62,415 nt of DNA, taken from assembly GCA_020719045.1 (NCBI GenBank), contig DYQY01000009.1, positions 1 through 62,415 of the forward strand, in the 5' to 3' direction. The first letter of the stretch is position 1. The number at the start of each line of letters is the position of its first letter. A model generated the notes under the pieces. It ran no database searches and was not told the DNA's origin. It saw only the letters and a list, made by a program, of their open reading frames with translations. Positions 36,408 to 51,395 of this stretch are shown here, in pieces. The translations under genes were made by a program, and so were the position numbers. Origin of the DNA: Candidatus Termititenax sp. (GTDB taxonomy: Bacteria; Margulisbacteria; Riflemargulisbacteria; GWF2-35-9; DYQY01).

Positions 36408-39400
36408 CTATTTCCAGTTTGCATTAAGTGCAATCGTCTGTTGACTTAACCATGTCGAAGTATTACCCATTTGTCCCATCATTTTCTCAAGCTCAGTAAA
36501 CTGTTTCCTAAGTCTTTCTTCCTCAATAGCTAATCTCTCTTCCATACTTTCTATCTGCCCATCAATCATTTGCATCTCTTCTGATGTATTATCCATAGCA
36601 TTACTAATAGAACCTGTTGATGCATCCGTAATAGAGCTTATCTTATAATCAAAATATTTAGACAGACCTACTGGCTGAAATGCTTGAATCTCGGCTAACT
36701 TTACATCCCCACCACCAACTGTTGTCATATTGTTAAATCTTATTTTACTTGCGTACAACCCACTTAAGGCATTAAAGGTAATATCCTTTTTCGTGTTATT
36801 AGTAACAGTTGTATGATCTGCCCAGCTTGAGCCATTCCAATACTGAAGCACTAAGCTACTCACAACATCATTTGGGTTTGTATCTGTACCAAACATAGTT
36901 AGGGAGGTTATATCTATTTTCTTTCCAAAATCCATCTCTATATTGCTTCCACTCGCACCTTGCCAACCAGTAGTACCAGCTAATAATGCTGTCTCGCTTG
37001 TGTTGCCATCCTTAACCCCATTAATATTTCCTGCTGTTGTAGAAGAAGTCGTTAAAGCTGCTGATGCTGTTGCATTATAGTTATAAGTAAAGAAATCCTT
37101 AACATCTTCAAAATCATCTTGAAGTGCTTGATTAAACTCTGTTTTATTAAAAGACAATGTTCCATCTAACTCAAGAGTCATCCCTACTTGTGAAACAGAT
37201 TTTATTGAACCACTCAACTCACTTGCACCTTTGCTTATATAGGAAAACAAGTCCTGCTGAACTAACATCAAGTTAGTATCTCCAAACAAAGGATTAGTAA
37301 CCCCAGACTCAGAGTTATAGCTTAGCTGTTCCTTTATCTTATCCATAACCGCATTGTAGTTATCTACAAATTCCTCAGCTATGGTTGTAATCTCCTCGTA
37401 GTTATTAGTAACAGTAACAGTAACCTGACTTTCTGAAGCTTCCTTCAGATTTAATGTCATACCTGATATAAAGTTACTTACAGTATTGCTAGAATTTTTA
37501 ACAAATATTGCCTGGCTTGAACTAGGCTCACCCATTGTAATCAAAGAATCTTCTGCCTCAACAGCTGTATTAAACTGTAAAGCATCTATCTCACTGCTTA
37601 CTATAAATGAACCATTCCTTCCTGACTTTGATGAAGTTAAAACAAGTCTGTATGGGTCTGAAGACCCATCATTTATAATAGAGGCTGAAAGATTTATTCC
37701 TAAATTATTAATTTCTGCCTGTAAATCTACTAATGTATAGTCAGACGTAACACTTACTGTTTTCTTAAAAGACCCATCTACAGTTCCATCCGTATCAGAG
37801 CCAAGTATGCCCAAACTCTTTGCTGTTCCAGCAGTACCGTTTTCAGCAACAGTAATATTTCCACCATTTGTATCAGTAATTAATAGTCCATCTCCTGTTG
37901 AATTTATACTTGCTGTTACATGATACGAACCACCCGTTGATGCTGTATTAATTGCATCTATAACCTGTCCAATATTAGTCAAAGAGGTACTACTTAAATT
38001 TACATTAAACTTATTTCCATCACTATTTGTTATTGAAATACTACCTCTTTTAAAACCAACTCCCTGGTTCAAATCAGCAAGAAGCGTTGACCTATTAAAA
38101 TACTTAAACCCCAAACTACTTCCTGATATTTCACCATTTACCGAACTTCCAGAATTAGTCACAGCGTAAAGACCTAAATCCCTTGATGTGTTTGAGTCAG
38201 TAATTGTGAAACTAGTCCCACTCCCCTTGTATAGTTCAATCCCATTTCCGGAATTATTAATTCTGGCAGAAACACCAGTATCTGTGCTTACTGCATTAAC
38301 CTTCTTTATTATTTCTATAATAGAGTCTTTAGCTGTAACTGTTATGGTTCTAGTCACATCTCCAACCACATCAAATGTTCCTGCTCTAATTCCGTTGCCA
38401 GTAGCACCATAAAGACTTGCACTTAATACTGAACCAAGCCCTCCTACAATTGCTGTTCCATCACTACCCGTTCCAGTAATTCCCATCAACCCTAAATCCT
38501 TAGCAACCTTTGAGTTACCACTCTCAGAAACTGTAATATTTGTACCACTTAGATTGATACTCTTTTTATCTACACTTATTGAAGCTGTTATTCCTGAACC
38601 AGAAGCATTAATCAAACTTACTACTTCTCCAACCGTTTTAGCTCCAGATATATCTATTGTATAATTACTTCCTCCATTATTAAGGACGAAGCTTCCCTTC
38701 TCTGCACCTAGACCACTATTTAGTTGGCTTAAACTCATATTGCTTGCTAAATAATAAACGCTACTTCCAGCTTTCTGATTTGCAGCAACTCCCGCTGAAC
38801 CAGTGTCTATGCCGAGCCCAGTAGCCATTGTACCGTTGCCTGCATTCCTCACTATTAAATTACTGGAAGTTGATGAACCTGTATAACTTACATTAATACC
38901 ATCACCAGCCGAGTTAACCTCAGCGGACAACTTTAATCCTGACCCATTAATTGCGTCTATAACTTCATATATATCTTGGGCTGTACTAAGATCTAAAGTA
39001 GTACCATTTCCATCTCTATCCTGAACATAAATACTCCCTCTAGTTACTCCAGATCCACCATTCAAGGAAGAAAGCTCAGTGTATCTCTGCAACTTAGCAT
39101 TACCAGACTCAATTGTAATCTGCTTAGTTGTAGTGGCCAGTTTAGTTGTTGATGAATCACTAAATCCAGCTGAAGTTAGCTGTGAGGACTGTGCTAGTTT
39201 ATTAACATAAAAAGAGTAACTTCCAGCGTTAGCTGAAACCGAAGCACTTAGTGAAAGGATATCCTCGTTAGAAGAAACTGCACGCTTAACTCCAAAGGTT
39301 GCTGATCTGGATAGGTTATAATTTGATAACTGCAAGGATACTAAGTCTGCAGAAATACTACCCCAAGTGCTTTCTTTCGCTTGTGCTTTATCTCTTTTAG

Positions 39401-39497
39401 TTGTTAGATTTGTTACCTGCTGACGTTTAATAGCCATTAAGCTACTAATGATATTTTCGGTATCTAACCCTGAGGACATCCCGCTAATATTTGCCAA
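36408..39497 (-). CDS. fliD: Filament cap protein FliD with tandem repeats and an inserted discoidin-like domain
   Basis: 1029 residues, about twice the usual size. The FliD N-terminus (SGLDTENIISSLMAIKRQQV) and C-terminal coiled coil are intact. Between them, four repeats of about 110 residues start near 139, 253, 355 and 468, each with an RGS/KGS-type strand, a VIDAIN-like helix and a GDGI-type turn (flagellin_IN-like). A galactose-binding (F5/8 type C) domain seems inserted at about 811-939 (IEMDFGKKIDITSLTMFG, LVLQYWNGSSW, KLAEIQAF). It caps the growing filament. Start is TTG (39495-39497) with AGGGGG seven bases upstream. Confidence 0.93.
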   Translation of the reverse strand: MANISGMSSGLDTENIISSLMAIKRQQVTNLTTKRDKAQAKESTWGSISADLVSLQLSNYNLSRSATFGVKRAVSSNEDILSLSASVSANAGSYSFYVNKLAQSSQLTSAGFSDSSTTKLATTTKQITIESGNAKLQRYTELSSLNGGSGVTRGSIYVQDRDGNGTTLDLSTAQDIYEVIDAINGSGLKLSAEVNSAGDGINVSYTGSSTSSNLIVRNAGNGTMATGLGIDTGSAGVAANQKAGSSVYYLASNMSLSQLNSGLGAEKGSFVLNNGGSNYTIDISGAKTVGEVVSLINASGSGITASISVDKKSINLSGTNITVSESGNSKVAKDLGLMGITGTGSDGTAIVGGLGSVLSASLYGATGNGIRAGTFDVVGDVTRTITVTAKDSIIEIIKKVNAVSTDTGVSARINNSGNGIELYKGSGTSFTITDSNTSRDLGLYAVTNSGSSVNGEISGSSLGFKYFNRSTLLADLNQGVGFKRGSISITNSDGNKFNVNLSSTSLTNIGQVIDAINTASTGGSYHVTASINSTGDGLLITDTNGGNITVAENGTAGTAKSLGILGSDTDGTVDGSFKKTVSVTSDYTLVDLQAEINNLGINLSASIINDGSSDPYRLVLTSSKSGRNGSFIVSSEIDALQFNTAVEAEDSLITMGEPSSSQAIFVKNSSNTVSNFISGMTLNLKEASESQVTVTVTNNYEEITTIAEEFVDNYNAVMDKIKEQLSYNSESGVTNPLFGDTNLMLVQQDLFSYISKGASELSGSIKSVSQVGMTLELDGTLSFNKTEFNQALQDDFEDVKDFFTYNYNATASAALTTSSTTAGNINGVKDGNTSETALLAGTTGWQGASGSNIEMDFGKKIDITSLTMFGTDTNPNDVVSSLVLQYWNGSSWADHTTVTNNTKKDITFNALSGLYASKIRFNNMTTVGGGDVKLAEIQAFQPVGLSKYFDYKISSITDASTGSISNAMDNTSEEMQMIDGQIESMEERLAIEEERLRKQFTELEKMMGQMGNTSTWLSQQTIALNANWK

Positions 39498-40050: not shown

Positions 40051-41607
40051 TTATCCAAGCAATTGCAATACTGAAGTTGGAACTTGGTTAGCTTGAGCTA
40101 ACATGGCTGTACCAGCTTGTACTAAAATCTGATTCTTCATGAAGTTCATCATTTCAGCTGCCATATCTACGTCTCTAATACGAGATTCTGAAGCTGTTAG
40201 ATTTTCTTTAGTAACACCTAGATTGTTAATAGTTGTTTCTAAAGTAAACTTCTGGAATGAACCTAACTGTGATCTGTTTGTTGATACGTCTGTAATCGCC
40301 TGTTCAATAATCGCAACAGCCGCTTCAGCGTTATCACTTAAGTTGTATGTACCACCAGCGATAATCGCATTCAATCCAGCATAGTTAGTTGTATCTGTGG
40401 ATACTGCTCCTAATCCTAGCTTGGATGTTTGCATGTTAGCAATACCATAATTAATGATATCTGCCGTTGCTGCGTCTGGTGTTAAAGAGAACTTTAACTT
40501 CTCACCATTCTTGTCTAACAAGAAAGTAGCTTGCTCAGATGAAGTAGTATTTGTAGCTCTAGTTGCAGATAATGCTAAAGACAATCCAGTCCATCCACTT
40601 TGTGCAGATGTAAAGTTATATCCACTTGCTATCAATGATACTTCGCTAGAACCATAAGTTAGCTTACCAGTCATATTGGAACCCATAACAGATACTACTG
40701 CACCTGATGTTCCAATTCCTAATGATGCAACTAAGGCTGCTGCTGCAGATCCTGATGTTTCAATCTGGAATGTACCAGCTACACCTGACGAGGTTGCTGT
40801 TAGCTTTAGAATACCACCTGAACCTACTACAGAAGCCACAATACCTGTTGCTGCTGTATTACTATTAATAACAGCTGCTAATGATGTTAAACCATAGCTG
40901 GTGCTACTAACAAAACTTATAGTTAACGATGCACCACCTGAACCAATTAGCTTTAAGTCGGCTGCTCCGCCAAGTGATACTAAATTAGATGATGTAACGC
41001 TAGCTGTTCCAGATGCAGTAGCTACAACTGCTGCTGATGTAACGACCACATTTACATCACCGCTGTCATTTGCACCCAATAATGCAGAAACAGTATCTAA
41101 TGATAATGTGCCACTTAACGCAAGAGTAACACCATCTGTTCCAGCTGCAAGAGTCCCTGTTTTAGTAGTAATAGCTGCATCTGTTGCTTCACCGTTAAGT
41201 AAAAACTTTCCAGCGAACTTTGTTGTTGTTGCAATTCTTTGTATTGATTCAACGGCTTTATCAACCGCTGTTTGGTCTGCGGCTATTGAACTTGCGTCGT
41301 TTGCAGAAGTATTTGCAGCATGTACTGCAAGACCTCTGATACTATTTAACATAGTATTCATTTCTGTTAACGCACCTTCAGCTGTTTGTACCATTGATAC
41401 TGCATCGCTTGCGTTACTGATTGCTTGTGTTAAACCAGTAATCTGCGCTCTTAACTTCTGCGAAATAACTAAGCCAGCAGGATCGTCTGCCCCTCTATTG
41501 ATTCTATAACCTGATGATAACTTCTCTAGAGAAGATCCCATCCCATTTGAAGAAATACCTAAATTTCTCCATGCATTTAATGCTGCTATATTATTATTTA
41601 TTCTCAT
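40051..41607 (-). CDS. fliC: Flagellin 1
   Basis: 518 residues. Conserved N-terminal D0/D1 (INNNIAALNAWRNLG, then LSSGYRINRGADDPAGLVIS) and C-terminal D1/D0 (ESRIRDVDMAAEMMNFMKNQIL, ANQVPTSVLQLLG). The Ser/Thr/Ala/Gly-rich central part (about 175-351) is the exposed region and a likely target of Maf glycosylation. That central part is encoded by DNA identical to flagellin 2. Its leader holds a sigma-28 promoter and a CsrA-type hairpin. ATG with AGGAGG upstream. Confidence 0.98.
   Translation of the reverse strand: MRINNNIAALNAWRNLGISSNGMGSSLEKLSSGYRINRGADDPAGLVISQKLRAQITGLTQAISNASDAVSMVQTAEGALTEMNTMLNSIRGLAVHAANTSANDASSIAADQTAVDKAVESIQRIATTTKFAGKFLLNGEATDAAITTKTGTLAAGTDGVTLALSGTLSLDTVSALLGANDSGDVNVVVTSAAVVATASGTASVTSSNLVSLGGAADLKLIGSGGASLTISFVSSTSYGLTSLAAVINSNTAATGIVASVVGSGGILKLTATSSGVAGTFQIETSGSAAAALVASLGIGTSGAVVSVMGSNMTGKLTYGSSEVSLIASGYNFTSAQSGWTGLSLALSATRATNTTSSEQATFLLDKNGEKLKFSLTPDAATADIINYGIANMQTSKLGLGAVSTDTTNYAGLNAIIAGGTYNLSDNAEAAVAIIEQAITDVSTNRSQLGSFQKFTLETTINNLGVTKENLTASESRIRDVDMAAEMMNFMKNQILVQAGTAMLAQANQVPTSVLQLLG
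40556..41084. repeat. 529-bp identical tract, copy in flagellin 1
   Basis: Base-for-base identical to 50338-50866 with a constant offset of 9782 and no gaps, checked line by line. Beyond both edges the genes diverge at once. It codes residues of the central, surface-exposed domain (about 175-351). Confidence 0.97.
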
Positions 41608-41806: not shown

Positions 41807-44800
41807 CTAAAACTCTACAAACCTAGTTTCTATAATGTACTCGCTACCTAAAATATCAGAAACTATTCGCTGATAGTTATCCAACTGCTTTTGCTCTTTC
41901 TCTTCGCCTGTTTTATAGTCAATTATTAATACTTCTTTATTCTTTTCATCTATCATTAATCTATCTACTCTGTACTCCTTGGTACCATCAAAAACTATAT
42001 ATTCATTAAAAACTTGATACTTCTCTGAAAACAGCCCTGTATTATGTACTACAAACTCTTTACACCTTGCACACACACTATCAATCTCTTTGGCTGAAAA
42101 GAAGTTTCCATACTTCTGATACAACACTTTGGTTGCTAGTGAATGCTCTACAGCTTCGTTCTTTGCAATGTATGCCAAATACTCATGAACCATTGACCCG
42201 TCTAGCTGCTTTGCAATATATGTTGCATTGGAATACACAATCCGCCTATCAAACTCAGAGTCGCTTACTTCAAAGTTCTTTATAAGAGAGATACCTTTAG
42301 TTGCTCCCCCCTGTCGCTCTGCGACATCCCCCCTCAATGAGGGAGGCTTTTTTGTTATCTCAATAAGAACACCTATTTGCAATGGTTCAACCTCTAACTC
42401 GGATATGCTTTCGATGTTTCTACCATTACGCCGACAAACGCTTGTTATGGCTTCTTTCACTAAAAAGTACATGCCGTCCTTTTTTGAACCGACCATACTT
42501 TTCTGTTTATTAATTTCCTCATACTTTTTACCAACCATACAACTAACAAATAAATTCTTCTTTGCTCTAGTTAATGCAACATAGATATTATTAATTTCTT
42601 CCATAAAGACTTTTCTGTTCTGTCTTTGAAGCAAGTACTTTTTGTCAGCATGGTTTTCTATTACCACCCTATCCTCTGGCGACAAAACCACGCCATCCGT
42701 TACCCCATTGAAGTTTCCATTAAACCCTACATACAATAAATAATCGTCCTGTGGTGGCTCCTTCGTAGCCAAATTTAATAAATAAAAAACATTATCAAAC
42801 TCCATGCCCTTTGACTTATGGATTGTCATAATCTGAACTGAATCGCTTAGCTCTAACCCAACTTGCTTAAAAGTATCTGTTTTTCTCCTTTGCTCAAAAT
42901 ACCTTAACAAATCTGCAATACTTTGTTTATTTGTCTGTGTTAACTGATAGTCTCTAACTATTTCAAGAAACTTTCTAATGTTCTTCTGGTCATGCATCTG
43001 AGTAAAAACCTTTGCTACTTGGAAATGTGTAAGTATTCTAATTATTAATTGCTGAAGTGGTTCTTTCTCTGGAAACCCTTTAATAAAATCAACTATCTCT
43101 GCCAGAGGAGCTACCTTCGTTACATCTTCTCCCTGTGCATTTAACTTCAAAACTTGGTCAAGACTGTTTAAAGAATAACCCAAATAATCTGACCTCATAA
43201 AATCAAATAAATAAGACACCTGGCTAGTCGAAAGATATTTGAGTAAATATAAAATAGGCTTAATAGCCTTGTGATCTAAAATAGAAGATGAACTCTCTAA
43301 AACAAAAGGGATTCCTCTTTTCTTTAAGGCTAAAGCTGCAAGCTCCATCTCGTTACTAGTTCGAAGCAGGATTGCTGTTCCTGCTGAAGACAACTTACCC
43401 TCAGAAAGCAACTGAGCAAAATTAGCTACAATCTTCTCTATCTCCTGCTCTAAGTCATAACCATCTGAACCTTGACGACTAAATCTAACTTCCACGTATC
43501 CTTGCTCATCTTTTTTCTTGCAATCTACTTGCTCATATTGCCAAGAAGAATTAACATCGCCCTCTGTGTTACTAGCGATACTTAAGAACATCTCATTAAC
43601 AAAAGAAATAACTGCTTGAGAGCTACGATAAGATGTTCTTAAAACCTCTGTATTATCTACTCCTAGTATTTCCTGGAGATTATTTAATAAATCCTTCTCG
43701 CCTCCGCGCCAACCATAAATTGCCTGCTTATCATCCCCGACACAAACAACACCTCCAAGTTCTGAGCTTGAAGAAATCTCCTTTATTAATGGGTATAATA
43801 TATTCCATTGGATAACACTGGTATCCTGGAATTCATCAATAAGCAAATACCTAACTTTAGCAGAAAGCGCTTCATAAAAAACATTAAGCACCTCGCCTCT
43901 CTCTAAATCAATCAACGACATCTCATCATCATACAAGTATCTATAGGTATAATATGCTATATCTTGGTAGGTGAAAGTTTTCTTTCTCATCTTTATCTCA
44001 TCATAGGTGCCAAGGATAACTCTAAGTAATTCTTTTAACTCAGTTACTAATGGCACTACTCTTGTCTGAAAGAAGTATCCAGCAAGATTTTCCTTAAACT
44101 TACCGAATTGCTCTGCTAGCTCTTCGTTTATTTCTTTAAGCTTAACTTTACTCCAAAAATAATCTAGCCCAAGCATCAGCCTATACTCGCTGTTAATTTT
44201 AACTAGGAAATCATTCTCGCTCATTGTTTTGTCATAAGACTGAAAACAATTCTTATTAACAACCTCTACATATGTACCTTTTGTCTCCAATATCAAATCC
44301 ACCATTATGTCTAAGCTACCTTTAAGCTCGCCTACGGTTATTTTCCTCACCTGCTCATCTGTTTGTATCTTTTCTAGAACAAAGCGCTGATTGGCGGCGA
44401 ACTTGATAAACTTCTTATACCTTGATAAGTTTTTCATCTTCTTATTTAACTTAATAAGAACATCAAGACTCTTTTTCTTATGCTTGTCCCTTAAAATATT
44501 TATTAACACTTCATCGATAATCTCTTCATTTAAAGAGTCATCAATCAAAACATAATCCTCAATCTGCAAGTAAGGAGCAATTAGTCCTGAAAAAACTGAA
44601 CTTATAAAAGCATCGATGGTCATTACCTGAAAGCCTTGTTTATTAGTTAATAACTTTGCTCTTAACTTCTCAACTTTGGCTAAATCCAACTTGCACCCTT
44701 TGGACTGCAGTGCCTCCAATATAGACGAGTCCTGATGCTCACCTTTGAAATAAGCAAGTAGTTGTGCCAAATGTGCAACTACTCTATCCCTTATCTCTGC

Positions 44801-44938
44801 TGCTGCCTTGCGAGTAAAGGTTATCGAGAAGACTTCGTTAACCTCAGCTCCTGAGAATAGAAGAACTAGTATTTCAATAGAAAGCCGATAGGTCTTTCCG
44901 GTTCCTGCACTTGCCTTAATAACTTTTGAGCTATCCAT
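41807..44938 (-). CDS. addA: ATP-dependent helicase/nuclease subunit A (AddA-like)
   Basis: About 1043 residues. UvrD/RecB helicase motifs in order: Walker A SAGTGKT (10-16), LLIDEFQDTSVIQW, GDDKQAIYGWRGG, RTSYRSS, MTIHKSKGMEFD and YVALTRAKK. A RecB-type nuclease domain closes the protein (VDRLMIDEKNKEVLIIDYKTG). With AddB it resects double-strand breaks for RecA. Longest frame starts at 45001; I prefer the ATG at 44938 (eight-base overlap with addB), with ATG 44959 as alternative. A palindromic repeat is inserted in frame at about residues 864-879. Confidence 0.92.
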   Translation of the reverse strand: MDSSKVIKASAGTGKTYRLSIEILVLLFSGAEVNEVFSITFTRKAAAEIRDRVVAHLAQLLAYFKGEHQDSSILEALQSKGCKLDLAKVEKLRAKLLTNKQGFQVMTIDAFISSVFSGLIAPYLQIEDYVLIDDSLNEEIIDEVLINILRDKHKKKSLDVLIKLNKKMKNLSRYKKFIKFAANQRFVLEKIQTDEQVRKITVGELKGSLDIMVDLILETKGTYVEVVNKNCFQSYDKTMSENDFLVKINSEYRLMLGLDYFWSKVKLKEINEELAEQFGKFKENLAGYFFQTRVVPLVTELKELLRVILGTYDEIKMRKKTFTYQDIAYYTYRYLYDDEMSLIDLERGEVLNVFYEALSAKVRYLLIDEFQDTSVIQWNILYPLIKEISSSSELGGVVCVGDDKQAIYGWRGGEKDLLNNLQEILGVDNTEVLRTSYRSSQAVISFVNEMFLSIASNTEGDVNSSWQYEQVDCKKKDEQGYVEVRFSRQGSDGYDLEQEIEKIVANFAQLLSEGKLSSAGTAILLRTSNEMELAALALKKRGIPFVLESSSSILDHKAIKPILYLLKYLSTSQVSYLFDFMRSDYLGYSLNSLDQVLKLNAQGEDVTKVAPLAEIVDFIKGFPEKEPLQQLIIRILTHFQVAKVFTQMHDQKNIRKFLEIVRDYQLTQTNKQSIADLLRYFEQRRKTDTFKQVGLELSDSVQIMTIHKSKGMEFDNVFYLLNLATKEPPQDDYLLYVGFNGNFNGVTDGVVLSPEDRVVIENHADKKYLLQRQNRKVFMEEINNIYVALTRAKKNLFVSCMVGKKYEEINKQKSMVGSKKDGMYFLVKEAITSVCRRNGRNIESISELEVEPLQIGVLIEITKKPPSLRGDVAERQGGATKGISLIKNFEVSDSEFDRRIVYSNATYIAKQLDGSMVHEYLAYIAKNEAVEHSLATKVLYQKYGNFFSAKEIDSVCARCKEFVVHNTGLFSEKYQVFNEYIVFDGTKEYRVDRLMIDEKNKEVLIIDYKTGEEKEQKQLDNYQRIVSDILGSEYIIETRFVEF
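42304..42349. repeat. Palindromic repeat inserted in frame into addA
   Basis: Two nested stems: TGTCGC-TCT-GCGACA (42312-42326) and CCCTC-AAT-GAGGG (42331-42343), with C-rich and GGGAGG flanks that also pair in part. The coded peptide (PPSLRGDVAERQGG) is of the kind seen when intergenic palindromes enter genes. Its composition is much more GC-rich than the gene around it. Confidence 0.8.
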
Positions 44939-47480
44939 TCTTTCTACAAATCCCTTCATGCTCACAATACTTACAAGCCTTAGTTGTAACAGCAAAGTCA
45001 TACTCTTTCTTATCCACTAACTGAGCCCAAAAAGTGTTAATCATTGCTTTGATATCAATATGTTTGGCTTGCTGTTCCTGCATGTCAAATACCTGATAAA
45101 AGAATAGCTGTGGCTTAGTTTCCTCAGACTCTGCTCTGCCTTCATAATAGTACTCACTATAGAAACTTAGCTGTTCTTCCTTCATGGTTGTACCAGTTTT
45201 GAAATCAAAAATGAAAACTCTTCCGTCAAGAAGCTCAATCCTTAAGTCTGCTCTGCCTGTTATTTTAAGCTGTACTTTCTTGCCATCTATCGCAAACTCT
45301 CCAACTGCAAGATTACTATCTACCACATCATCTTCCACATATAGCTGGCTTATATCTTTTAATTCAAACTTTTTCCCGCAAACATTTACAAAGAACTTTT
45401 TAATGGATTCTGCTAGTATTGGCACAATAACCTGCTCAGCATAGTCCTGAGTATATGCTTCTGGTAGCATATCGCTATTCTTGCCAAAAATAGCACTAAT
45501 TACTCGATGTGCATTAATGCCCTCTAAAACTTTAGAGAAAGTAACATCTTTACCAATAAACTGCTTCATCTCTGCACATATCTGAGCAAAAATATCATGT
45601 ACGATGTTTCCTAATACGTTATCTTTAATATCTGAACTTTCCTCTATTTTAAGCCTACTAACTTTTGCGACCTTCTCTAAATAAAACTTCAACGGACAAG
45701 CCCTAAGCGTTTCAAAGGAAGTTGCACTCAAAACTACTTCTTCACCAAAGTCTGATTCCTTAACTCTAATTAGTTCTTCTCCTGAAAGATTCTTGATATA
45801 TGCGTTTTTCGACACCATTTTCTGGATATATCCGCCATAATAACTATCACTCTTAACTGATACTTGAGATACTTTCTCGGCTGGTAGCTCCAACACCAGC
45901 TCTTCAACGTATGAGCTTGTTTGCTTGCCCTCGGTTGCATTATCAACACAATATATTGTTATTTGCTTATTTCTTAAACAAAGCTGTAAAAAAAGTTTCC
46001 GCTGTTGCTCTAATAAATCTTCTCTAGTTGTAGCGCCTAATACCCTCAACTGCTTCTCAGTAAACAAATAAACCTTATGTTTTATTCCAGATAAGACATT
46101 TTCATTAGCATTTAATAGCAACACTCTTTTGTTCTCCAGAAACCAAGATTTCTTAAAGTCCACTACTCTTAATTTCTTTTCAGTGGCCTTTGGCAACAAA
46201 TACTCTAACTTAAGATGCTCGCATCTTTTTAACAAAAGATTTAACCAACCAACACCTCTCAGGCTGTTTTTTACACAAACTTCCGAGTTGAAAGCTTTTT
46301 GCAAACTAAATAGCTGACCGAAAAGCTTATCTAAAATTGTATCAAAAGAACTCTCTAGTAATCTTGCTAAATCCATCCCTTTGATAAATTCAACCAAGTC
46401 GTTAACATTTTTTAACTTCTGAATTTTGCTTATATCCTCTTCTAATTTCTTCAAAGAAAAGCTTGATAAAGAAAAGAAGATTCTATTATTAGCTAATTTC
46501 TTCCTAAGCAGGCTAACATCTTCCTCGCTTACTTGGTAATAATTACAAAATTCACTATTACTACAAGCTTCCTCAAGTCTGTATCCGTCTATCTTTCCAT
46601 CACTAATGCTATTAACAAGCATCTCCAGACACTTTAACGCAGAATAAACCCTTGATGAGTTAAAGTATGAAGAATACTTAAGCTCAAAAGTATCTAAATC
46701 TAATAACTCAGCATATCGAATAGAATCATTAGCAAGATCAACGATTACATCAAACGAGTCCCTGTCTGCGATGCTTGCTAAGTGAACTAACTGACCAAAA
46801 CTATCTGAGCATCTATTTATAGTAACTTTTTGTAAATTATTGTTTTGAAAGGATAATCCTTCACTTGCAGCTACCTCAACTACAGTCTTCTGCTTACGAA
46901 GATATTCCAGAATAGTTTGCTCTCTTTTACTATAGCCATCATTCCCCACAAAAATAAGTTGCTCATAGCCATCAAAACAGCTTAGGCTAAGAACTTCCAT
47001 ACCAATAAAAGCTTCATCAACATAGCCATTCTCACCTATCAGTGATAAATATTTATCCCTAACTAAAATAAGCATATTAAATGTTGATATTTGCCAATTC
47101 AATTGGTTCTCACTATCAGCTGTTGACTCAAAAAAACTTTCAGTTAACTCCAAACAATTGGCCTCTTGGATTGTCTGAAAAAATTCAAAAAACTTTCCTG
47201 CAAAAACACTTGTGTCCAAATAATCACGTATACCAAAAAACTTTTTTATCTCTACATCTAAAATACTGTCTAAGGCAACTATCCTTTTTTCCCCATTAAC
47301 TGCTGGTTTATCATACAAAAACAATAACTGTTTAAGCTCTGCTAATGTAATATATTTAATCTTACGGAAACTATGTTTTTCTTGGAGATTTCGAATAAAA
47401 CTTTTCTTTATTTGCTCATCCACAAACACCAATACTGCTGGATTACTAAGGTATGGCTCAATCAAGCTTGTTATATTCAT
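44931..47480 (-). CDS. addB: ATP-dependent nuclease subunit B (AddB-like)
   Basis: 849 residues. The N-terminal half is an inactive helicase-like region without a Walker A motif. The C-terminal PD-(D/E)XK nuclease domain has ADLRIELLDGRVFIFDFKTGT. An iron-sulphur cluster is likely: one cysteine in FETLRACPLKFYL and three in CKYCEHEGIC. This layout matches the shorter AddB proteins. It forms the break-resection complex with AddA encoded directly after it (eight-base overlap). ATG start, two bases after recJ. Confidence 0.9.
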   Translation of the reverse strand: MNITSLIEPYLSNPAVLVFVDEQIKKSFIRNLQEKHSFRKIKYITLAELKQLLFLYDKPAVNGEKRIVALDSILDVEIKKFFGIRDYLDTSVFAGKFFEFFQTIQEANCLELTESFFESTADSENQLNWQISTFNMLILVRDKYLSLIGENGYVDEAFIGMEVLSLSCFDGYEQLIFVGNDGYSKREQTILEYLRKQKTVVEVAASEGLSFQNNNLQKVTINRCSDSFGQLVHLASIADRDSFDVIVDLANDSIRYAELLDLDTFELKYSSYFNSSRVYSALKCLEMLVNSISDGKIDGYRLEEACSNSEFCNYYQVSEEDVSLLRKKLANNRIFFSLSSFSLKKLEEDISKIQKLKNVNDLVEFIKGMDLARLLESSFDTILDKLFGQLFSLQKAFNSEVCVKNSLRGVGWLNLLLKRCEHLKLEYLLPKATEKKLRVVDFKKSWFLENKRVLLLNANENVLSGIKHKVYLFTEKQLRVLGATTREDLLEQQRKLFLQLCLRNKQITIYCVDNATEGKQTSSYVEELVLELPAEKVSQVSVKSDSYYGGYIQKMVSKNAYIKNLSGEELIRVKESDFGEEVVLSATSFETLRACPLKFYLEKVAKVSRLKIEESSDIKDNVLGNIVHDIFAQICAEMKQFIGKDVTFSKVLEGINAHRVISAIFGKNSDMLPEAYTQDYAEQVIVPILAESIKKFFVNVCGKKFELKDISQLYVEDDVVDSNLAVGEFAIDGKKVQLKITGRADLRIELLDGRVFIFDFKTGTTMKEEQLSFYSEYYYEGRAESEETKPQLFFYQVFDMQEQQAKHIDIKAMINTFWAQLVDKKEYDFAVTTKACKYCEHEGICRKNG

Positions 47481-49820: not shown

Positions 49821-51395
49821 TTAACCTTGTAATAATTGAAGTACTGATGATGGAACTTGGTTAGCTTGAGCTAACATGGCTGTACCAGCTTGTACTAAGA
49901 TTTGATTCTTAGTAAAGTTCATCATCTCAGCTGCCATATCCACATCTCTAATACGAGACTCTGAAGCTGTTAGATTTTCTTTGGTAACCCCAAGATTGTT
50001 GATTGTTGACTCTAGTGTAAACTTCTGGAATGAACCCAATCTAGATCTTTCAGAAGATACATCAGAAATCGCCTGGTCAATAATAGCAACAGCCTTTTCC
50101 GCATCATCTGTTAAGTTATAGGCACCACGTGTTGTAATTGCATTAAGACCACTATACGTACCTGTCAGATTGGATATTCCATCTTCTGTTGTGACGCCAA
50201 TCTTTGTAATCTGTAAGTTAGCAATACCATAAGTGATAATATCATCTATTGAGGCATCTGGTGTTAATGAGAACTTTAAATCCTCACCGTTCTTGTCTAA
50301 CAAGAATACACCTTGCTGAGCTAACGTAGTATTTGTTGCTCTAGTTGCAGATAATGCTAAAGACAATCCAGTCCATCCACTTTGTGCAGATGTAAAGTTA
50401 TATCCACTTGCTATCAATGATACTTCGCTAGAACCATAAGTTAGCTTACCAGTCATATTGGAACCCATAACAGATACTACTGCACCTGATGTTCCAATTC
50501 CTAATGATGCAACTAAGGCTGCTGCTGCAGATCCTGATGTTTCAATCTGGAATGTACCAGCTACACCTGACGAGGTTGCTGTTAGCTTTAGAATACCACC
50601 TGAACCTACTACAGAAGCCACAATACCTGTTGCTGCTGTATTACTATTAATAACAGCTGCTAATGATGTTAAACCATAGCTGGTGCTACTAACAAAACTT
50701 ATAGTTAACGATGCACCACCTGAACCAATTAGCTTTAAGTCGGCTGCTCCGCCAAGTGATACTAAATTAGATGATGTAACGCTAGCTGTTCCAGATGCAG
50801 TAGCTACAACTGCTGCTGATGTAACGACCACATTTACATCACCGCTGTCATTTGCACCCAATAATGAAGCAACTGCCGCAGGAGAAAGCTTATTGTTTTC
50901 ATCTAATGTTAATGTGATACCATCAGAACCTGAAGCTAATGTGCCTGTCATCGCAGTAACATCTGCATTCCTAGCACTACCGTTAAGTAACAACTTGCCA
51001 GCAAACTTGGTTGTGGTTGCAATTCTCTGAATAGATTCAACTGCTTTATCAACCGCTGTTTGGTCTGCTTGTATTGAACTTGCATCGTTAGCTGATGTAT
51101 TTGCAGCATGTACTGCTAGTCCTCTGATACTATTTAACATAGTATTCATTTCTGTTAACGCACCTTCTGCTGTTTGTACCATTGATACTGCATCGTTTGC
51201 GTTACTAATTGCCTGACCTAAACCTGTAATCTGTGATCTTAACTTTTCTGAAATCAACAAACCAGCAGGATCGTCTGCTCCTCTATTGATTCTGTATCCT
51301 GATGACAACTTCTCTAAAGAACTCGCCATTCCGTTTGAAGAAATTCCTAAGTTTCTCCAAGCATTTAATGCTGCTATATTATTATTAATTTTCAT
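49821..51395 (-). CDS. fliC: Flagellin 2
   Basis: 524 residues. The same conserved ends as flagellin 1 (INNNIAALNAWRNLG; ESRIRDVDMAAEMMNFTKNQIL, ending VLQLLQG). The central domain (about 177-353) is coded by DNA identical to flagellin 1, while the N- and C-terminal parts differ at many silent sites. Unlike flagellin 1 it has neither a sigma-28 promoter nor a CsrA-type hairpin in its leader. ATG with AGGAGG. Followed by a strong terminator. Confidence 0.98.
   Translation of the reverse strand: MKINNNIAALNAWRNLGISSNGMASSLEKLSSGYRINRGADDPAGLLISEKLRSQITGLGQAISNANDAVSMVQTAEGALTEMNTMLNSIRGLAVHAANTSANDASSIQADQTAVDKAVESIQRIATTTKFAGKLLLNGSARNADVTAMTGTLASGSDGITLTLDENNKLSPAAVASLLGANDSGDVNVVVTSAAVVATASGTASVTSSNLVSLGGAADLKLIGSGGASLTISFVSSTSYGLTSLAAVINSNTAATGIVASVVGSGGILKLTATSSGVAGTFQIETSGSAAAALVASLGIGTSGAVVSVMGSNMTGKLTYGSSEVSLIASGYNFTSAQSGWTGLSLALSATRATNTTLAQQGVFLLDKNGEDLKFSLTPDASIDDIITYGIANLQITKIGVTTEDGISNLTGTYSGLNAITTRGAYNLTDDAEKAVAIIDQAISDVSSERSRLGSFQKFTLESTINNLGVTKENLTASESRIRDVDMAAEMMNFTKNQILVQAGTAMLAQANQVPSSVLQLLQG
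50338..50866. repeat. 529-bp identical tract, copy in flagellin 2
   Basis: Partner of 40556-41084; identical with no gaps. Likely product of recent gene conversion between the two flagellin genes. Confidence 0.97.

Follow-up and report, generated by a model that had tools for sequence, protein, structure and literature searches.

The closest described systems to the element reported here are the REP and REPIN palindromes and their RAYT partners (REPtrons), in which short palindromes occur in tens of copies, solitary or paired, and a small nuclease-type gene is bracketed by inverted copies. Some REPs lie inside DNA-repair genes, recBCD among them (PMC3733652). For the CGTC REPs, which include RPE-4 and RPE-6, no transposase is known (PMC3733652), and the Rickettsia palindromic elements (RPE) are dispersed palindromes inserted in frame into coding genes. 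The TIR-associated Y1 transposases (TIRYT) are accompanied by a GGGGWSAS motif (PMC3733652). As for nucleases of another kind, PMC9403480 places DUF559 in the EDxHD homing endonuclease family, whose exemplar I-Bth0305I binds nearly 60 bp of target (PMC3943268). VsrA, a DUF559 protein from Caulobacter, has been interpreted as a Vsr-like mismatch-repair nuclease (PMC12907096).

The DNA-repair gene addA of a Candidatus Termititenax genome holds, in frame, a hairpin repeat of 45 nt. It lies in a stretch of 62,415 nt, hereafter called the window. The original prediction placed a GC-rich double hairpin at 42304-42349, in frame inside addA. The sequence, the ORF and folding bear this structure out; the locus was right and its boundaries are refined to 42303-42347. 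Both predicted hairpins are present, but a third arm had been overlooked. The features of the locus are:

42303..42347, minus strand: REP-like tripartite palindromic element of 45 nt, in frame in addA (sequence, ORF, folding and the held-out model described below)
42328..42346, minus strand: hairpin 1, CCTCCCTC-ATT-GAGGGGGG (sequence, folding, family covariation)
42312..42326, minus strand: hairpin 2, TGTCGC-AGA-GCGACA (sequence, folding, family covariation)
42304..42311, minus strand: third arm, GGGGGGAG, a repeat of the G-rich arm of hairpin 1 (sequence; kept in other copies of the element)
42331..42353, plus strand: terminator-like hairpin and T run on the antisense strand of addA (predicted from sequence, with no sign of function)
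41807..45001, minus strand: host gene addA, a RecB-like helicase-nuclease of the PRK13909 type (ORF and domain matches)
44931..47480, minus strand: addB-like gene (PDDEXK_1), directly upstream of addA (domain match)

On the minus strand, which is the sense strand of addA, the element reads GCCTCCCTCATTGAGGGGGGATGTCGCAGAGCGACAGGGGGGAGC, with hairpin 1 followed by hairpin 2 and by the third, G-rich arm. Its GC content is 0.689, whereas addA has 0.36 and the window 0.35; no other 45-mer of the window is as GC-rich. The sense-strand RNA folds at -21.3 kcal/mol, a value equalled by none of 200 shuffles of a 54-nt stretch. The reading frame stays open across the insert, which encodes PPSLRGDVAERQGG, residues 886-899 of the 1064-residue ORF and not residues 864-879 as first proposed. 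It does lie where it had been expected, in the linker that separates the helicase domain from the nuclease domain: motif VI, the last helicase motif, is at residue 808 and the nuclease motif VHEYL at residue 938. Since recJ is also found upstream, on the same strand as the addB-like gene, the insertion site belongs to a repair cluster. The PDB matches to AddA reach its helicase part, and the insert is uncovered among the stretches listed. No Rfam family matched the window at the gathering threshold and no RPE model appeared among the NCBIfam matches to AddA, although these libraries possibly hold no RPE models.

Five homologues of AddA, taken from the neighbouring family and 31-39% identical, have no such peptide in the linker, which is the gap that the original prediction had proposed to look for. 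The AddA of the sister species (73% identical) carries another palindrome in the same linker, TTCTCCCTCTCGAGAGGGAGTTAGAGGGAGTG, translated as SPSREGVRGS. This palindrome resembles copies of its own genome, such as TTCTCCCTCTTGAGAGGGAGATGTCCGTTAGGACAGAGGGAGTG, minus hairpin 2. Its end is shifted by one base against the codons that follow, and two independent insertions into a tolerant linker are therefore favoured over one ancestral insertion. A second element lies just beyond the end of addA in the sister species, where an MsrA-MsrB fusion gene also has two elements of opposite orientation in frame in its interdomain linker (contig C15, L143, 1947-2045). Interdomain linkers are thus a recurrent refuge for these elements.

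The original reading of a palindromic, dispersed repeat holds, and the further copies that it called for were found by blastn, pattern searches and models. Within its own genome, blastn retrieved a second copy of the addA element (83% identity over 41 nt, E=1.4e-5), and pattern searches retrieved more, in two sequence subfamilies. At E<=0.001, a covariance model built from eight of these copies found the element 17 times in this genome and 27 times in its sister species; it has matches in 33 of the 56 genomes of the phylum. As the addA copy was among the eight, a second, held-out model was built without it, from eight copies of both genomes. Its only full-length match in the window is 42302-42347 (33.9 bits, E=1.6e-9). 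The secondary structure appears to be constrained across the family, since double changes in stem pairs exceed both sets of controls: in 50 distinct copies, 10 of the 14 stem pairs have double changes and 105 cells are changed doubly, where shuffles gave 34 and slid controls never more than 14. This margin is somewhat overstated because the alignment was fitted to the model and leans towards its structure. The third arm is kept in other copies; the signal for its co-variation with the 5' arm is weak (7 of 1000 shuffles were as good) and is given no weight here. One further copy of the same genome lies in frame in a giant ORF (C18:6294), but comparison by eye with the neighbouring protein repeat gave no clear gain in length, so that it was not counted as proof of insertion. 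On the same contig, just left of position 2610 of L139, a palindrome of the TCATTCCCG...CGGGAATCCA type that resembles CGTC REPs adjoins an element of the addA family. The exact degenerate pattern of the element has no match in viral contigs; a looser one detected palindromes with GGGGATGTC...GACAGGGGG on 19 IMG/VR contigs filed as viral (L109-L127), where the model confirms the element.

Two classes of element can be distinguished. The addA class contains hairpin 2 (TGTC...GAC), and class (ii), CTCACCCC-CCCTCTC...GAGAGGGG, is devoid of it. Given that intermediates exist, such as L215, where GTC...GAC lies inside a GGGGTGAG element, we judge both classes to be probably parts of one superfamily.

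What the earlier reader could not see from one window is how widespread the family is and its physical tie to DUF559 genes. In several relatives, two inverted copies of the element stand a few hundred bases apart with a DUF559 gene between them. Across 19 genomes, 21 of 96 strong element matches have a DUF559 gene no more than 400 bp away, where 0.175 would be expected. A flank inverted-repeat score independent of any model reached at least 30 around 26 of 41 DUF559 genes and none of 88 control ORFs, a score of which one part cannot separate inverted from direct repeats because hairpin 1 is itself palindromic. The same threshold was attained at 7 of 15 further loci of the phylum, from other families, several of the others having recognisable hairpins of the same type, and in 9 of 12 records of a plasmid collection, nearly all from other phyla (Deinococcota, Cyanobacteriota, Alphaproteobacteria and two other Proteobacteria). 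The Novosphingobium record among them (L236) has the tripartite class, as in addA. In the examples, hairpin 2 and the third arm served to orient the elements. The third arm points inward in genome G007 and outward in most others, which leaves the pair without a set polarity. The median number of elements is 13 in genomes with DUF559 and 2 in those without it (56 genomes, P=1.5e-5, by a statistic that ignores phylogeny); some genomes have elements but no detected DUF559 (G022, G052). The partner protein is recognised as PF04480 at the curated Pfam score, and 55 DUF559 proteins show little or no variation in the catalytic-type residues E, DF, ExDGxxH and D. On Deinococcus plasmids (L225, L226, L234), DUF559 genes occupy three different positions around hpa catabolic genes, with palindromes flanking each. 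Full-text searches of the open-access literature turned up no publication that connects DUF559 with palindromic repeats.

The units made up of a DUF559 gene and its two elements look mobile, judging from the comparison of their copies. In the sister species, the units of contigs C42 and C61 are 81% identical over 530 bp and the similarity stops at the ends of the elements. Two units of another genome (G018 C15 and C3) stand in different surroundings and share 97% identity over 503 bp; their similarity ends inside one element and about 20 bases past the other. A further unit lies between addB and addA (G006 C37:4500-8000, about 1520-2070 of L199), with an exact direct repeat of 59-60 bp, consisting of the element and its flanks, on both sides. 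Longer direct repeats flank a few other units (L182, L165, L187).

These elements resemble REPs in the broad sense: they are dispersed small palindromes, solitary or paired in tens of copies, and a nuclease-type gene is bracketed by their inverted copies. Unlike in REPtrons, that gene encodes a DUF559 protein of the Vsr/EDxHD type and not a HUH tyrosine transposase, and the elements have a three-arm architecture without GTAG or CGTC tag (the addA element lacks GTAG and has GGAG in its third arm). The suggested likeness to RPE is justified as regards behaviour, namely insertion in frame into coding genes, which does not in itself make the element a member of that family. The GGGGWSAS motif of TIRYT resembles the GGGGTGAG arm of class (ii), yet the enzyme is different and the element is absent around the Y1 genes checked here. 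EDxHD homing endonucleases such as I-Bth0305I belong to the same nuclease grouping as DUF559 (PMC9403480), and the long target of I-Bth0305I is about the size of one element; nevertheless, the available parts of PMC9403480 and PMC3943268 describe no palindromic repeat family with them. Since palindromes inside repair genes, recBCD included, had already been reported (PMC3733652), the addA insertion is not new in kind but a fresh instance of a known phenomenon.

Several scenarios may explain these observations. On balance, we lean towards the addA insert being a solitary, non-autonomous, REP-like copy of an element whose master form is a small DUF559 (Vsr/EDxHD-type) endonuclease gene between two inverted elements, with DUF559 as the mobiliser. 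The DUF559 protein would recognise the folded or duplex element and nick or cut it, and repair or re-ligation would then copy elements, or the entire nuclease unit, into new sites, in a manner akin to the supposed action of RAYT on REPs. Three circumstances may account for the survival of the addA copy: its length is only 45 nt, the frame in which it is read has no stop codon, and it landed in the linker that joins helicase and nuclease. The elements would, in that case, probably be the termini and the offspring of DUF559 units. We infer that a DUF559 nuclease, rather than a RAYT, moves the elements of the addA type, and the way in which it would cut them is proposed on the same footing. Three points speak against this role: the elements in genomes without detected DUF559, the polarity in G007 and the role attributed to VsrA in Caulobacter. 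Moreover, the only DUF559 gene of the genome studied is flanked by class (ii) elements (CTCACCCC...GGGGTGAG) and not by the addA class, so that the cognate enzyme of the latter would have been lost or would act across classes. A broader proposal is made tentatively, as it may well turn out otherwise: DUF559 nucleases would be specialised in mobilising a superfamily of tripartite palindromes that extends throughout bacteria, in a system similar to REPtrons but with a Vsr/EDxHD endonuclease in place of the HUH transposase. If true, this would explain palindromic repeats that invade coding sequence without a transposase. The tight link to a different nuclease family puts a name to the candidate enzyme and makes a simple in vitro test possible; it would also hint at what DUF559, a widespread family of unknown function, does.

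Alternatively, the elements could form an independent REP family, and the DUF559 genes could be selfish cassettes of the homing type that land or cut at abundant palindromes, riding on the repeats and not making them. Homing enzymes with long targets do occur among EDxHD nucleases, there are far more solitary elements than DUF559 genes, and the G006 unit lies beside a duplicated element that probably pre-existed. Yet insertion into a target would more simply leave split or directly repeated copies, and the units are bounded by full inverted copies at which their homology ends, which indicates that the elements belong to the unit. We therefore regard this scenario as rather unlikely. It is more doubtful still that DUF559 is a cargo trapped between two copies and that the elements owe their movement to a different transposase, RAYT/TIRYT-like or as yet unidentified. 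RAYT and TIRYT transposases are flanked by such repeats, some with GGGGWSAS like the class (ii) arm (PMC3733652), and PF01797 is present in 5 of 12 relatives examined. Nevertheless, the search that finds the RAYT of E. coli (PF01797) finds none in the genome studied or in its sister, both rich in elements, the Y1 genes checked in relatives have no such elements at their flanks, and the same cargo would hardly be trapped by chance in several phyla. The absence of PF01797 and the element-free Y1 flanks also rule out a RAYT as the local partner in this genome. That AddA keeps the palindrome for a function, as a transcript hairpin, an antisense terminator or a linker peptide, rather than carrying it as a neutral passenger, seems very improbable: the antisense strand is terminator-like and the sister species also has an element in this linker, but that element differs in sequence, peptide and register and the neighbouring family has none. 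Finally, a chance GC-rich hairpin is ruled out by the folding shuffles, the top GC rank and the held-out match, and although a single assembly of 31 contigs was used, chance or an assembly artefact is scarcely credible given the E-value of 1.6e-9, the many other copies, the strong covariation and the frame open through the insert.

Other features of the window were noted alongside the element. Two flagellin genes of the same direction (40051-41607 and 49821-51395), 83-89% identical in three ungapped stretches of 300 bases, lie about 9.8 kb apart on either side of the recJ-addB-addA cluster, which would be lost if they recombined. A long FliD-like hook-associated protein with an F5/8 type C domain is encoded at 36408-39497. 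Two pairs of direct repeats of unknown nature are present at 25146-25351/26906-27111 (206 nt, 80%) and 23266-23372/35857-35963 (107 nt, 76%).
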